This document shows, piece by piece, positions 5,824 to 12,893 of a stretch of DNA of 13,516 nucleotides. The stretch comes from an uncultured Lachnospiraceae bacterium (GTDB taxonomy: Bacteria > Bacillota > Clostridia > Lachnospirales > Lachnospiraceae): positions 1-13,516 of the forward strand of contig CAMOZD010000004.1 in NCBI GenBank assembly GCA_946630645.1, written 5' to 3'. Both the position numbers and the translations under genes were made by a program. How positions within the stretch are numbered: the stretch's first letter is position 1; each line of letters begins with the position of its first letter. The notes under the pieces were generated by a model. That model was not told where the DNA came from and made no database searches. It saw only the letters and a program-made list of their open reading frames with translations.

Positions 5824-6645
5824 TCAGCCATCCAGTCCCAAAGTCCTGATGATTTCCCTGGCCACACCATCCTGGTCATTGGTATATCTTGTGACATGGC
5901 GGCACTGCTTCTTAACCTCCGGATGACCATTGAGCATACACCAGGAGTCAGGGCAGAGTACCAGCATATCCAGATCATTGAGATAATCGCCGAAAACCAT
6001 GGTTTCTTCCGGCTCCAGCCCCAGGTGGGCACACAGCCTCTCGTAGGCGATCCCCTTGGAGGCTTTCTTGCTGATCACATCAATCCATCCCTCACCGGAA
6101 AGCCTGATCATAAACTGGTCCATGTAATCTTTGAGCAGTCTGAGACCCTTTTGCTCTTCGGACCCGTCAAGGCTGGTATGGAGGGAAATCTTCACCAGCC
6201 GGTCCCTGTCAAAGACCTCCTCAATGGACGAAACCAGCCCCACACGGCCATTAAAGCCATTGAAATAATGCCAGGCAACCTCCCTGGCCGCCTCCGTCTC
6301 GGCTTCCAGCACATAGTTTTTTTTCAGGCCGCAGAAGACTGGATGGAGAAAATCTGTATCCATGATCAACTGCCAGATTCCCTTCAGTTGCTCATAGGTG
6401 CAGTCCTCATACCAGATCAGGCTCCCGTCCACATCATAGAGGGTCGAACCGTTATCGGAAATAGAAGCAAAGGGAATTCCCTGGAAAAAATCCTCCAGAT
6501 TAGGCCTGGATCTTCCACTGGCCGCAGCGAAAACAATACCCCGGTCTGTGATTGTTTTTAAGGTTTCCCTGGTCAGCCTGCTCAGCTGCTGTTTGTCATT
6601 TAAAAGGGTTTTGTCCATATCGCAGACAATCATTTTTTTCATCAT
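5824..6645 (-). CDS. Cof-type HAD-IIB family hydrolase (sugar-phosphate phosphatase-like)
   Basis: A 273-residue haloacid dehalogenase superfamily phosphatase. Motif I is DMDKT (Asp9 and Asp11, nucleophile and acid/base), motif II AASGRS (Ser43), motif III Lys197 in KKASKGIA, motif IV GDYLNDLDM (Asp220, Asn223, Asp224). The C-terminal NDQDGVAREI is typical of the Cof/YbjI group, which has a C2B cap and removes phosphate from sugar phosphates or cofactors such as FMN or PLP. The precise substrate cannot be inferred. The start at 6645 is set by GGAGG (complement of 6652-6656) 6 nt upstream, shortening the longest frame (6672) by nine residues. The DUF89 gene ends 147 bp upstream with no visible terminator or promoter between them, so the two are probably co-transcribed. 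Confidence 0.92.
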   Translation of the reverse strand: MMKKMIVCDMDKTLLNDKQQLSRLTRETLKTITDRGIVFAAASGRSRPNLEDFFQGIPFASISDNGSTLYDVDGSLIWYEDCTYEQLKGIWQLIMDTDFLHPVFCGLKKNYVLEAETEAAREVAWHYFNGFNGRVGLVSSIEEVFDRDRLVKISLHTSLDGSEEQKGLRLLKDYMDQFMIRLSGEGWIDVISKKASKGIAYERLCAHLGLEPEETMVFGDYLNDLDMLVLCPDSWCMLNGHPEVKKQCRHVTRYTNDQDGVAREIIRTLGLDG

Positions 6646-6704
6646 TACCGGCCTCCGATCTTTTTCTTCCACTCAATTGGCCGTTAGCCTTTTCTGACTT
6701 CTGG

Positions 6705-8018: not shown

Positions 8019-8141
8019 TTATGCAGCTTTCCCGGGCTTTGCAGCCTGTACAGTCTTTCTACCTCCGTAAATTATGCAGCTTTCCCGGGCTTTGCAGCCT
8101 GTATAAACTTTCTGCCTCCACAGCTTAGACAGGCTTTCCGG
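8019..8141. repeat. 53-bp tandem repeat starting at the lipoprotein stop
   Basis: Units 8019-8071 and 8072-8124 match at 45 of 53 positions, with the first 32 bp identical. Each begins with TTA followed by GCAGCTTTCCCGG. The sequence at the lipoprotein stop (8125 onward, TTAGACAGGCTTTCCGG) resembles the start of the unit, so the array seems to descend from the gene's 3' end. It lies in the 3' untranslated part before the terminator at 7919-7948. The rest of the 384-bp gap 7741-8124 holds the DUF89 promoter and no gene. Confidence 0.75.
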
Positions 8142-8690: not shown

Positions 8691-8829
8691 CCGACATGAT
8701 CCGACATAGTCCGGCTCATACTTAAAAGCCCGCCGGCTACAGGGCCGGCTCATACTTAGAAACCCGGCATCTACAGGACCGGCTCTTACTTAGAAACCCG
8801 GCATCTACAAGACCGGCTCCTGCTTCATC
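8691..8829. repeat. 34-bp tandem repeat across the esterase stop codon
   Basis: Units 8711-8744, 8745-8778 and 8779-8812 are contiguous, with a partial fourth from 8813; each starts CCGGCTC. Units 2 and 3 match at 32 of 34 positions, units 1 and 2 at 28 of 34. The third unit contains the esterase stop (8805-8807) and the partial fourth lies in its last codons. Two 10-bp CCGACAT-type repeats (8691-8710) adjoin the array. Confidence 0.8.
8732..8749 (-). terminator. Weak terminator-like hairpin after the esterase gene
   Basis: GCCGGC (8744-8749) and GCCGGC (8732-8737) form a 6-bp GC stem with a 6-nt loop. On the minus strand it is followed by GGGCTTTT, a short T-run set off by four bases. It falls inside the first 34-bp repeat unit, the only one whose sequence has diverged to make the stem. 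Confidence 0.3.
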
Positions 8830-9526: not shown

Positions 9527-9564
9527 ACCGGCAGATCGTCCCAAAACCGGCAGATCAGTCGAAG
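9527..9564. repeat. 19-bp tandem duplication across the Nudix stop codon
   Basis: Units 9527-9545 and 9546-9564 share the first 11 bases (ACCGGCAGATC) and match at 14 of 19 positions. The second unit contains the Nudix stop (TCA at 9555-9557, TGA on the minus strand). In the outer copy the stop has become CGA. Confidence 0.6.
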
Positions 9565-10175
9565 ACTGTCTCCCAGTGGTCTGCCTTATAAGCCTCATAG
9601 CACATGAAAACCTGGTCACTGGTATTTTTATCCTGGGTCAGCTCAGGAAGCTCATCCATGGCAAAATACCTGCTGGCCACTGTCTCAATGTTTTTCTCGA
9701 ACTCCCCCTCCAGAGGCCTGCAGAGAACAAAGGCCTTGATTACCTTAAAGGGATGGAGCTTCAGGTTATGTTTATCCAGGTCCACCAGGGCAACCAGCCG
9801 TCCTGGAGTTACCGTGAGACCAGACTCTTCCCTGGCTTCCTTCAGGGTATTTTCCAGGATGGAAGTATCCGGGTCTACCCAGCCGCCGGGCATGGACCAG
9901 GTTCCGCTCTTCTCCTGAACCAGCAGAATCTTATCCCCTTTGAAAATGGCCGCCCTGGTATCCAGCTTGGGAGTCACATAGCCTATATCACTGCAAAAAA
10001 GACTTTTTGCCCGGTCCACTGGTATATCCAGGCCTTCACTGATCATCTCTGCCGCAATCTCCCTGATCTTCTGGTAGCGTTCCAGGTCAAAGGGACCTGT
10101 CCCATAATAGAGTCCTTCCTGGGCTATGGCCTGCAGCTGCAGGGCCCGGTCCAGCCATTTATCATTCTCGTACAT
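9555..10175 (-). CDS. Nudix hydrolase with N-terminal Nudix_hydro_N domain
   Basis: A 206-residue Nudix hydrolase. Residues 1-60 match the helical N-terminal domain of the ADP-ribose/CDP-choline pyrophosphatase group (LQAIAQEGLYYGTGPFDLERYQ-type segment at about 14-35). The Nudix box spans residues 98-120. It reads G98-x5-T104-x7-K112-E-A-R-E-E-S-G-L, so the first Glu of the canonical GX5EX7REUXEE pattern is Thr and the Arg is Lys, while Glu113, Glu116 and Glu117 (metal ligands) are kept. Lys is common in this subgroup; Thr at position 104 is less usual. The likely reaction is cleavage of a nucleoside-diphosphate derivative, with the substrate unproven. The start has AAGGAG 8 nt upstream. It has its own promoter and is divergent from feoAB, with the esterase downstream. 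Confidence 0.9.
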   Translation of the reverse strand: MYENDKWLDRALQLQAIAQEGLYYGTGPFDLERYQKIREIAAEMISEGLDIPVDRAKSLFCSDIGYVTPKLDTRAAIFKGDKILLVQEKSGTWSMPGGWVDPDTSILENTLKEAREESGLTVTPGRLVALVDLDKHNLKLHPFKVIKAFVLCRPLEGEFEKNIETVASRYFAMDELPELTQDKNTSDQVFMCYEAYKADHWETVFD

Positions 10176-10236: not shown

Positions 10237-10265
10237 ATATTACCTTGGCTTTAAGAAAATGTAAA
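10237..10265 (-). promoter_or_regulatory. Sigma-A promoter for Nudix-esterase
   Basis: On the minus strand TTTACA (complement of 10260-10265), 17 bp, then TAATAT (complement of 10237-10242). Transcription would start near 10230, about 55 nt before the Nudix ATG. The match to consensus is good at both hexamers. Confidence 0.55.
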
Positions 10266-10323
10266 TAAAAACATAGATTTCAAATAATTATTAAACTTTT
10301 TTATTCCTTGTAAGGGGGCGAAG

Positions 10324-10509
10324 GATGTGTTAGAGTTTACTAACTTTATTATAGGAATTATTAAACTTATCTATCTATATTACAGGAAATGCTAGTATTT
10401 CCTGACTTTATTGCAGGGTGTGTTAGAAGTTCCTAACTTTATTGCAGAAAAAGTTAGACATTTCTAACTTTATTGCAGGAAATGGCAGAATATGCTAGAC
10501 TTAGTTCGT
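10324..10509. repeat. Six tandem 31-bp units with inverted repeats upstream of feoAB
   Basis: Contiguous units begin at 10324, 10355, 10386, 10417, 10448 and 10479, each 31 bp. The most conserved part is the right side, CTAACTTTATTGCAG. At offsets 6-10 and 17-21 sits an inverted repeat: GTTAG-N6-CTAAC in units 1, 4 and 5, degenerate in 2, 3 and 6. Unit 5 has the longest arms, AAAGTTAG/CTAACTTT. There are no unique spacers, so it is not CRISPR. The TTAG-N6-CTAA geometry recalls palindromes bound by DtxR/MntR-type metalloregulators, which would suit an iron transporter, but the regulator is not shown. Confidence 0.85.
10473..10501 (+). promoter_or_regulatory. feoAB promoter made from repeat units 5 and 6
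   Basis: TTGCAG (10473-10478), 17 bp, then TAGACT (10496-10501) preceded by TGC, an extended -10. The -35 is the conserved tail of unit 5 and the -10 is the right arm of unit 6. Transcription would start near 10508, 33 nt before the feoAB ATG. The inverted repeat of unit 6 lies between and over the hexamers, as expected for a repressor operator. Confidence 0.5.
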
Positions 10510-10541
10510 TTAGGCAAAACAAAGAATGTTGAGGATTTCCT

Positions 10542-12893
10542 ATGACGATAAAAGATTTAAAGCCGGGTCAAAGCGGTATGATCACCAGGGTTGGGGGCCA
10601 GGGAGCCCTGCGCCAGCACTTCCTGGACATGGGTGTGATACCAGGCGCTGAGGTTACCCTGATCAAGCTGGCTCCCATGGGTGACCCCATGGAGCTGCAG
10701 ATCCACGGCTATGAACTGACCCTACGTCTTGATGATGCGGCAAAGATTGAGATTAAAAATATAGCTGCCCCCAAGGCAGAACCGGAAAGCCCCCGGAAAA
10801 AACAGGAAGCTCCCCACCCGGGTCTGGGTGAGGAGGGCAAGTTCCATCCTAAGGGAACGGGAACGCCCCTGCCGGAGGATACCCTGTTAACCTTTGCCCT
10901 GGTTGGCAACCAGAACTGCGGGAAAACGACTCTGTTCAACCAACTGACCGGGGCCAACCAGCATGTGGGTAATTTCCCCGGCGTCACTGTGGACCGTAAA
11001 GATGGCGTCATCCGCGGCCATGCCAATACCCGCATCACTGACCTTCCGGGCATCTACTCCATGTCCCCCTATTCCAGCGAGGAACTGGTATCCAGGGACT
11101 TTGTTCTCCATGAAAAGCCCAAGGCCATCATTGATATTGTGGATGCTACCAATATTGAGCGGAACCTTTATCTGACCATGCAGCTGCTGGAGATGGATAC
11201 TCCCATGGTCCTTACCCTGAATATGATGGATGAGGTTTCCGGCAACGGAGGAGTCATAGACATAAACCGGATGGAGGAAATGCTGGGAGTCCCGGTAGTT
11301 CCCATCTCCGCATCTAAAAACCAGGGTGTGGAAGAGCTGGTACGGCACGCTGTCCACATTGCCAGATACCAGGAAAAGCCTGGCCGGCAGGACTTCTGTG
11401 ATGCCAACGACCACGGTGGTGCCGTCCACCGCTGCCTCCATGCCATCCTTCATCTGATTGAGGACCACGCACAAAAAGCCGGCATTCCACCCCGTTTCGC
11501 CACCAGCAAGCTGATTGAGGGCGACCAGCTGATCCTGAAACAGCTGGGGCTGGACCAGAACGAAAAAGAAACCCTGGACCATATCTGCCGGCAGCTGGAA
11601 AATGAAAGGGGTCTGGATTGCAGTGCCGCCATAGCGGATATGCGCTTTTCCTTTATTGAAAAGGTCTGCAGCCAGTGTGTCAAAAAGCCTAAAGAAAGCA
11701 AGGAGCATGCCCGGAGCCAGAGGATCGACCGGGTCCTCACCGGCAAATACACGGCCATCCCCACCTTCATTGCCATCATGGCCCTGGTCTTCTACCTGAC
11801 ATTTTCCGTAATCGGCGTATGGCTCCAGAACCTGCTGATTATGGGCATCAGCTGGTTGACCAGTATGGTTGATGCCGCCCTGACCGCCGGCCATGTCAAC
11901 CATGCCATCCACGGTCTGATTATCGAGGGTATCTTTGAAGGTGTCGGTAGCGTCCTGAGTTTCCTGCCCATCATCGTAACCATGTTCTTTTTCCTGTCCC
12001 TTTTAGAGGACAGCGGATATATAGCCCGTGTAGCCTTTTTTATGGATAAACTGCTACGGCGGATCGGTCTGTCAGGCCGAAGTATCGTACCCATGCTCAT
12101 CGGTTTTGGCTGTACGGTTCCGGCAGTTATGTCCACCCGGACCCTGCCCAGTGAGAGAGACCGGAGGATGACTATCCTTCTGACTCCCTTTATGAGCTGC
12201 ACTGCCAAGCTGCCCATATATGCCTTTTTCATCAGTGCCTTCTTTCCCAGCTACGGCTGGCAGATTATGACAGGCCTTTACCTGCTTGGAATCCTGGTTG
12301 GTATTATAGTGAGCAAGGTTTTCAATAGTTTTCTCTTCAAGGGAGAACCGGTCCCCTTTGTTATGGAGCTGCCCAATTACCGCCTTCCCAGCCCCCGCAA
12401 TGTCATGCAGCTGCTCTGGGAGAAAGCCAAGGACTTTTTGCAGAGAGCCTTTTCTGTCATCCTTGTGGCTACCATTCTGGTCTGGTTCCTCAAGAGTTTT
12501 GATTTCCGCTTTAACCTGGTAACCCATTCCCAGGACAGTATCCTGGCAAGTCTGGCCGGCCTCCTGGTACCTGTCTTTAAGCCTGTTGGCCTGGGGGACT
12601 GGAGGATCATTACTTCTTTGATCAGTGGCTTCATGGCCAAGGAGAGTGTGGTTTCCGTTATGAAGGTGCTCTTCTCCGCCCAGGGCGGTGTGGATGCCAT
12701 GATGTCCTCTCTGACGGCTGCTTCTCTATTGGTATTCAGCCTGCTCTATACCCCCTGTGTTGCGGCCATTGCCTCCATCAGGCGTGAGCTGGGCAGCCGC
12801 TGGTCCATAAGCGTCATCCTCTTCCAATGCGCCATCGCCTGGCTGGCCGCCTTACTGATCCAGTTAATCGGGCCCTTCCTGGGTCTGGCTTGA
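10542..12893 (+). CDS. feoB: FeoA-FeoB fusion, ferrous iron transporter
   Basis: A 783-residue ferrous iron importer in the cytoplasmic membrane. Residues 1 to about 73 are an SH3-like FeoA domain (LKPGQSGMITRV, FLDMGVIPGAEV). A charged, Pro-rich linker (about 74-113) joins it to FeoB. The G domain has G1 GNQNCGKTT (122-130), G2 region GNFPGVTVD (143-151), G3 DLPG (167-170), G4 NMMD (227-230) and G5 SAS (256-258). A helical GDI-like segment follows to about residue 390. The membrane domain carries the two Gate regions: GCTVPAVMSTRT (523-534) with SCTAKLP (552-558), and YTPCVAAIASIRREL (736-750). Cys524 and Cys739 lie in the gates. The ATG at 10542 is preceded by GAGGA (10531-10535). FeoA-FeoB fusions are known in some anaerobes. 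The Cys-rich partner gene follows 130 bp downstream, and the operon is probably controlled through the 31-bp array. Confidence 0.95.
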   Translation: MTIKDLKPGQSGMITRVGGQGALRQHFLDMGVIPGAEVTLIKLAPMGDPMELQIHGYELTLRLDDAAKIEIKNIAAPKAEPESPRKKQEAPHPGLGEEGKFHPKGTGTPLPEDTLLTFALVGNQNCGKTTLFNQLTGANQHVGNFPGVTVDRKDGVIRGHANTRITDLPGIYSMSPYSSEELVSRDFVLHEKPKAIIDIVDATNIERNLYLTMQLLEMDTPMVLTLNMMDEVSGNGGVIDINRMEEMLGVPVVPISASKNQGVEELVRHAVHIARYQEKPGRQDFCDANDHGGAVHRCLHAILHLIEDHAQKAGIPPRFATSKLIEGDQLILKQLGLDQNEKETLDHICRQLENERGLDCSAAIADMRFSFIEKVCSQCVKKPKESKEHARSQRIDRVLTGKYTAIPTFIAIMALVFYLTFSVIGVWLQNLLIMGISWLTSMVDAALTAGHVNHAIHGLIIEGIFEGVGSVLSFLPIIVTMFFFLSLLEDSGYIARVAFFMDKLLRRIGLSGRSIVPMLIGFGCTVPAVMSTRTLPSERDRRMTILLTPFMSCTAKLPIYAFFISAFFPSYGWQIMTGLYLLGILVGIIVSKVFNSFLFKGEPVPFVMELPNYRLPSPRNVMQLLWEKAKDFLQRAFSVILVATILVWFLKSFDFRFNLVTHSQDSILASLAGLLVPVFKPVGLGDWRIITSLISGFMAKESVVSVMKVLFSAQGGVDAMMSSLTAASLLVFSLLYTPCVAAIASIRRELGSRWSISVILFQCAIAWLAALLIQLIGPFLGLA

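Follow-up and report, generated by a model that had tools for sequence, protein, structure and literature searches.

The repeat array upstream of feoAB in the window studied here (the whole stretch of 13,516 nucleotides) reads, with a probability of roughly two in three, as a multi-site operator built from single-dimer DtxR-type sites that would repress feoAB when iron is plentiful. This reading has its basis in the array itself, the recurrence of its core before feo and iron-limitation genes, boxes embedded in promoters in some relatives, and the adjacency of DtxR genes in some genomes. Judged by gene neighbourhoods, the array lies before an iron gene and a number of other copies of its core do likewise. 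The array is most likely one member of a predicted set of multi-site iron switches spread through the order.

We found that the 31-bp step is exact across six units (10329..10514, no strand assigned; located by TRF, self-match and core register). Self-match reached 0.66 at shift 31, compared with 0.23-0.33 at the remaining shifts between 25 and 39, and TRF called 3.6 copies at 10371-10482 with a score of 112. The exact core, TTAG-N6-CTAA, occurs three times in 10250-10545, and three or more copies were seen in 0 of 5000 dinucleotide shuffles (mean 0.027). These results bear out the six-unit 31-bp array that the original prediction placed upstream of a feo gene.

The box cores, 16 bp long and without assigned strand, start at 10329, 10360, 10391, 10422, 10453, and 10484, and were scored against GTTAG-N6-CTAAC. 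Box 1 (GTTAGAGTTTACTAAC, 10329..10344), box 4 (GTTAGAAGTTCCTAAC, 10422..10437), and box 5 (GTTAGACATTTCTAAC, 10453..10468) score 10/10; their cores are perfect, and they differ from one another in the six bases within the core and in parts of the flanks. Box 3 (GCTAGTATTTCCTGAC, 10391..10406) scores 8/10. Box 2 (ATTAAACTTATCTATC, 10360..10375, placed by register only) and box 6 (GGCAGAATATGCTAGA, 10484..10499) are degraded, with 7/10 and 6/10 by eye. The expectation that most units carry a palindrome thus held for units 1, 3, 4, and 5 and failed for units 2 and 6. At a core match of 7/8 or better, only the three perfect boxes stand in register in the window.

The tail TTTATTGCAG, described earlier as conserved, is exact only 3' of units 3, 4, and 5. 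Units 1 and 2 carry the variants TTTATTATAG and TATATTACAG, and unit-by-unit reading of the array found no tail 3' of the core of unit 6. The tail is probably not a general feature of the site, since TTGCAG follows within 16 nt in just 3 of the 220 boxes outside the host's own genome, in two genera (shuffled flanks predict 0.33; post hoc P 0.003). In this tail test, the exact 31-bp step was common to loci L193 and L194. Two other tandem repeats were seen in the window, one of 34 bp (3.2 copies, 8711-8819, between two minus-strand ORFs) and one of 53 bp (1.9 copies, 8019-8119).

The gene downstream of the array is a single FeoA-FeoB fusion ORF on the plus strand (10542..12893, 783 aa), with FeoA, FeoB_N, FeoB_Cyto, Gate, and FeoB_C domains in Pfam, and not two genes as first supposed. 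The intergenic region that holds the array is bounded on its other side by a divergent Nudix hydrolase gene (9555..10175, minus strand; ORF and Pfam). The promoter scan of the array region returned no sigma-70-like site on the plus strand toward feoAB. By eye, a weak candidate absent from the scan output, TTGCAG-N17-TAGACT (10473-10501, 7/12 consensus letters), overlaps box 6. On the minus strand, a promoter-like TAGATA-18-TATAAT (10377..10348, 10/12) points toward the Nudix gene and is closely followed by box 1, which might control this gene; the region has three promoter-like sites of this kind compared with 1.6 expected. Another copy of the palindrome, with 9/10 (GTTAGCCTTTTCTGAC, 6683-6698), lies just upstream of a HAD-family hydrolase ORF (5824-6672, minus strand). 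The window shows no sign of being a foreign contig in the bin, because its tetranucleotide correlation with ten other contigs of the genome averages 0.885 and theirs range over 0.75-0.89.

We then compared 80 feoAB loci, the window excluded, from named genomes of mostly uncultured rumen or gut Clostridia labelled Lachnospiraceae, Oscillospiraceae, or Clostridiales. All tetramer dyads with a 6-bp spacer were counted in the 250 bp upstream of each locus (19.9 kb in total). TTAG-N6-CTAA ranked first of 256 dyads, with 15 exact occurrences in nine loci, compared with 6 for the next dyad. With other spacers from 0 to 15, the TTAG/CTAA dyad was found at most three times upstream of these loci, and TTAG-N6-CTAA was found 0 times in 80 kb of feoAB coding sequence. 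Conservation of the palindrome upstream of feo genes is therefore favorable though patchy: an exact core lies within 250 bp in 9 of the 80 loci and in none of the other 71. Among the five nearest FeoAB proteins (79-80% identity; L054, L055, L057, L058, and L059), only L059 has the exact core. L055 and L057 have no boxes upstream of feoAB; what they have there is a TGATAACAAATTATCA dyad similar by eye to a Fur box, which hints at a switch of regulator between lineages.

Two boxes (8/10 or better) 28-36 bp apart were found in 6 of the 80 loci (L092, L105, L110, L111, L116, L121). In L105, L110, L204, and L206, the arrangement TTGACAA-[box]-TATAAT places a box across the whole sigma-70 spacer, with another box downstream; L092, L111, and L116 have a similar promoter-embedded box with small differences. 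Occupancy of a spacer-filling box by a protein would presumably block RNA polymerase.

Tandem boxes recur in the order. A search of 392 genomes found TTAG-N6-CTAA pairs at a spacing of 29-35 bp in 80 of them (8 for the reversed control), and a wider search at spacings of 14-44 found pairs in 87 of 196 genomes (20 for the reversed control). Among 75 pairs listed, which were not filtered for coding sequence, the spacing ran from 17 to 44 bp, with 34 bp the commonest (13 pairs) and 25 bp next (7). Because the spacing varies, 31 bp is no rule, and strict helical phasing of the boxes is not claimed.

The neighbors of 30 pairs from the 29-35-bp search, a capped set that is not random, were feoA/feoB (11), DUF2325 (8), flavodoxin (3), ABC transporter (3), and a Shr-like heme-binding domain (1); none of these gene types adjoins the remaining four pairs (L186, L195, L196, L205). 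Thus a feo, DUF2325, or flavodoxin gene adjoins 22 of the 30 pairs, in a tally based on 38 of 47 ORFs, with nine divergent or spurious-looking ones excluded beforehand. At eight loci (L184, L185, L187-L190, L210, L211), DUF2325, sometimes followed by DUF3793, lies 3' of tandem boxes, and these loci form a candidate iron-limitation operon. Longer rows were found as well. With cores of 7/8 or better counted, five boxes precede feoA in L207 (steps of 28, 33, 34, and 33 bp by eye) and six in L212 (steps of 19, 19, 30, 35, and 19 bp by eye), so an array of this kind is not unique to the present locus. In relatives, the flank of the core often reads TTAGC...GCTAA.

Within the host genome, we searched for GTTAG-N6-CTAAC with zero or one mismatch and read ten places on nine contigs; three of the 12 one-mismatch sites (C1:2557, C108:4712, and C4:6683, the last in the window) were left out of this reading. 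Four of the ten places precede plainly metal-linked genes: an FTR1 permease with an Fe2+ transport protein (C179), a DUF3793-flavodoxin (C32), a ZIP transporter (C185), and a Fur-family gene (C30). A further site precedes an ABC transporter (C150), and the other five lie ahead of methyltransferases, DUF4418, or an unassigned ORF. With two mismatches allowed, the palindrome was not enriched in this genome (143 matches compared with 327 for the reversed control); thus only near-perfect sites are meaningful. Box pairs (8/10 or better) 20 bp apart were also observed before DUF3793/flavodoxin in the host (L137:4043-4078) and before feo genes in genomes of the same genus (L027, L034, L038, L040, L042).

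The recurrence of the core before feoAB loci supports the original proposal of an operator array of a DtxR-like kind for the feo gene, as far as sequence comparison can indicate, and its DtxR hunch was the better of its ideas. Of 78 genomes searched, 73 had a gene with the DtxR family PF02742, as did 60 of 60 near-complete genomes. Since the gene is present with or without arrays, its presence alone says little. Its position is more informative: no more than 1 kb separates a DtxR gene from a box pair in at least 12 of 50 pair-bearing genomes, and 5 of the 24 DtxR genes read have a box of 9/10 or better upstream (G268, G334, G310, G009, G020), two of them (G009 and G020) in the genus of the window. 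The host's own draft genome, which is 75.6% complete, gave 0 matches to a DtxR gene; one borderline PF01325 match near the cut-off was rejected, as the protein belongs to the MarR family. The sister genome G021 has a DtxR gene, and its Fur-like protein is 98% identical to that of the host.

Five DtxR proteins of the order were scanned. They are 125-158 aa long, only the DNA-binding and metal-binding DtxR families scored above the cut-off, and no SH3-type family was matched. Two of the order's DtxR proteins align to structures of MntR and of DtxR or IdeR. We examined the positions of DtxR Cys102 and Met10, which have ligand roles. The Cys102 position holds cysteine in all 29 ORFs caught by a pattern permitting C, M, S, or E, and MntR has Glu there in the alignment. 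The Met10 position holds Asn in 18, Met in 6, and Asp in 5 of these ORFs, and because of this variation the metal is uncertain. Both counts refer to the set obtained by regular expression, which missed seven of 30 loci (L213, L214, L215, L232, L233, L234, L240). According to a review, the SH3-less members reported so far show no Fe2+ response in vivo (PMC7762939); therefore, the metal is the key question.

The main rival to the DtxR reading, which we consider unlikely, is that the host's divergent Fur-family protein, encoded on contig C30, recognizes the boxes. The gene for this protein (L136:3469-3945, minus strand) has a GTTAG-N6-CTAAC-type box, and the protein is the sole Fur-family match in the host's own genome (G000). 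A box of 9/10 lies upstream of the Fur-like gene in 5 of the 16 genes read (G000, G021, G016, G006, G023), and a Fur-like homologue lies just downstream of feoB in several relatives, such as G005, G009, and G018. However, the homologue was found in only 11 of the 45 pair-bearing genomes searched (80 such genomes overall), the Fur model matches only the DNA-binding half of the host protein and leaves the C-terminal half outside, and the place of the gene in the regulon does not make its product the regulator. An array of Fur boxes was rejected: the inverted repeat TGATAATNATTATCA, the Fur-box consensus, is absent from the array at up to 3 mismatches, and two matches lie elsewhere in the window (0.66 expected).

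It is more doubtful still that the array is a neutral tandem repeat that happens to hold an old operator, with the number of units having no effect. Units 2, 3, and 6 are degraded, and the DNA of the array was unmatched in the remaining 23 genomes of the genus, where at most 14 candidates per genome were scored. Against this, three cores stayed perfect despite differing inner six bases and partly differing flanks. The five- and six-box rows before feoA in L207 and L212 have unlike flanks, and from these rows it follows that multiple boxes recur. The idea that the array acts as RNA, as a leader with repeated hairpins, an attenuator, or a riboswitch-like element, is very improbable: each box can pair with itself and one terminator-like hairpin was found at 10383-10404 (0.2 expected), but the window has no Rfam match, the fold is only weakly better than that of shuffled sequences (z -1.56, with 17 of 200 shuffles folding equally well), and some relatives have a box within the spacer of the promoter, on the upstream side of the start site.

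For the operator reading, we propose the following mechanism. Each 14-bp TTAG-N6-CTAA core would bind one dimer of a metalloregulator of the DtxR family, most likely the order's short DtxR protein. Dimers loaded with metal, presumably Fe2+, would occupy adjacent boxes at intervals of about three helical turns, perhaps cooperatively, and the filled boxes would turn feoAB transcription off. When iron falls, the dimers would leave and FeoAB would be made. The 31-bp regularity may have arisen by tandem duplication of one box-plus-flank unit, after which boxes 1, 4, and 5 would have been kept while boxes 2, 3, and 6 were decaying.

A wider version of this model is tentative, and we hold it with clearly less confidence than the operator reading itself. 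It extends to the whole order of anaerobic Clostridia, where a short SH3-less DtxR would control the iron regulon through separate single-dimer sites, in rows of two to six boxes with steps of mostly 19-35 bp, in place of the classical overlapping box. The number of boxes, changing by tandem duplication as in the 31-bp array, would set the steepness of the iron switch. If true, the model would predict both the members of an iron regulon (feo, FTR1, flavodoxin, DUF2325/DUF3793, ABC transporters) and the operator that serves it in many gut and rumen bacteria; titles and abstract openings of the literature matches listed describe no such regulon or operator for these bacteria. It would also place an SH3-less DtxR on iron genes, though the known ones are reported in the review as Fe2+-unresponsive in vivo (PMC7762939). 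Furthermore, the natural series of box numbers and spacings could reveal how site count shapes a metal switch.

A reading of the palindrome as fitting no known box is not supported when it is compared with IdeR: in a published IdeR study, two dimers bind the 19-bp box from opposite faces, and a half-site, proposed there to be TTAGGNNNNCCTAA, can be bound by a single dimer (PMC8464063). The half-site and the array have the same 14-bp TTAG-N6-CTAA frame. Across the whole window, box 4 matches TTAGGNNNNCCTAA best, with one mismatch, and boxes 1 and 5 have two; the array differs in that the base beside the core is often not G or C. The half-site pairs one dimer per 14-bp site with control of iron genes, and both properties are predicted for the array. 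The classical 19-bp box consists of two overlapping sites offset by 5 bp, whereas the sites of the array are separate and 31 bp apart. We rejected the array as a classical IdeR box, since no match to the overlapping 19-bp form was found in the window at up to 3 mismatches; exact copies of that form occur in 2 of the 392 genomes of the order.

Two further systems offer partial likenesses. The Fur operator before feoAB (PMC4506495) resembles the array in being an iron-responsive operator before feoAB, a property that is predicted here. Its sequence is unlike the array, which has no Fur-box match within 3 mismatches of the consensus. A row of sites for a DtxR-family regulator, the regulator being a prediction in our case, is known from B. 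subtilis MntR at mneP, where four dimers are reported to cooperate on weak 18-bp sites that follow one another with 1 bp in between (PMC11275975). The resulting 19-bp step recurs partly in L212 and is not matched by the 31-bp step of the window, and the mneP array activates an Mn2+ exporter, whereas the present array precedes an Fe2+ importer. By analogy, the array would combine the half-site idea of IdeR with the multi-site idea of MntR, at another spacing and before another target.
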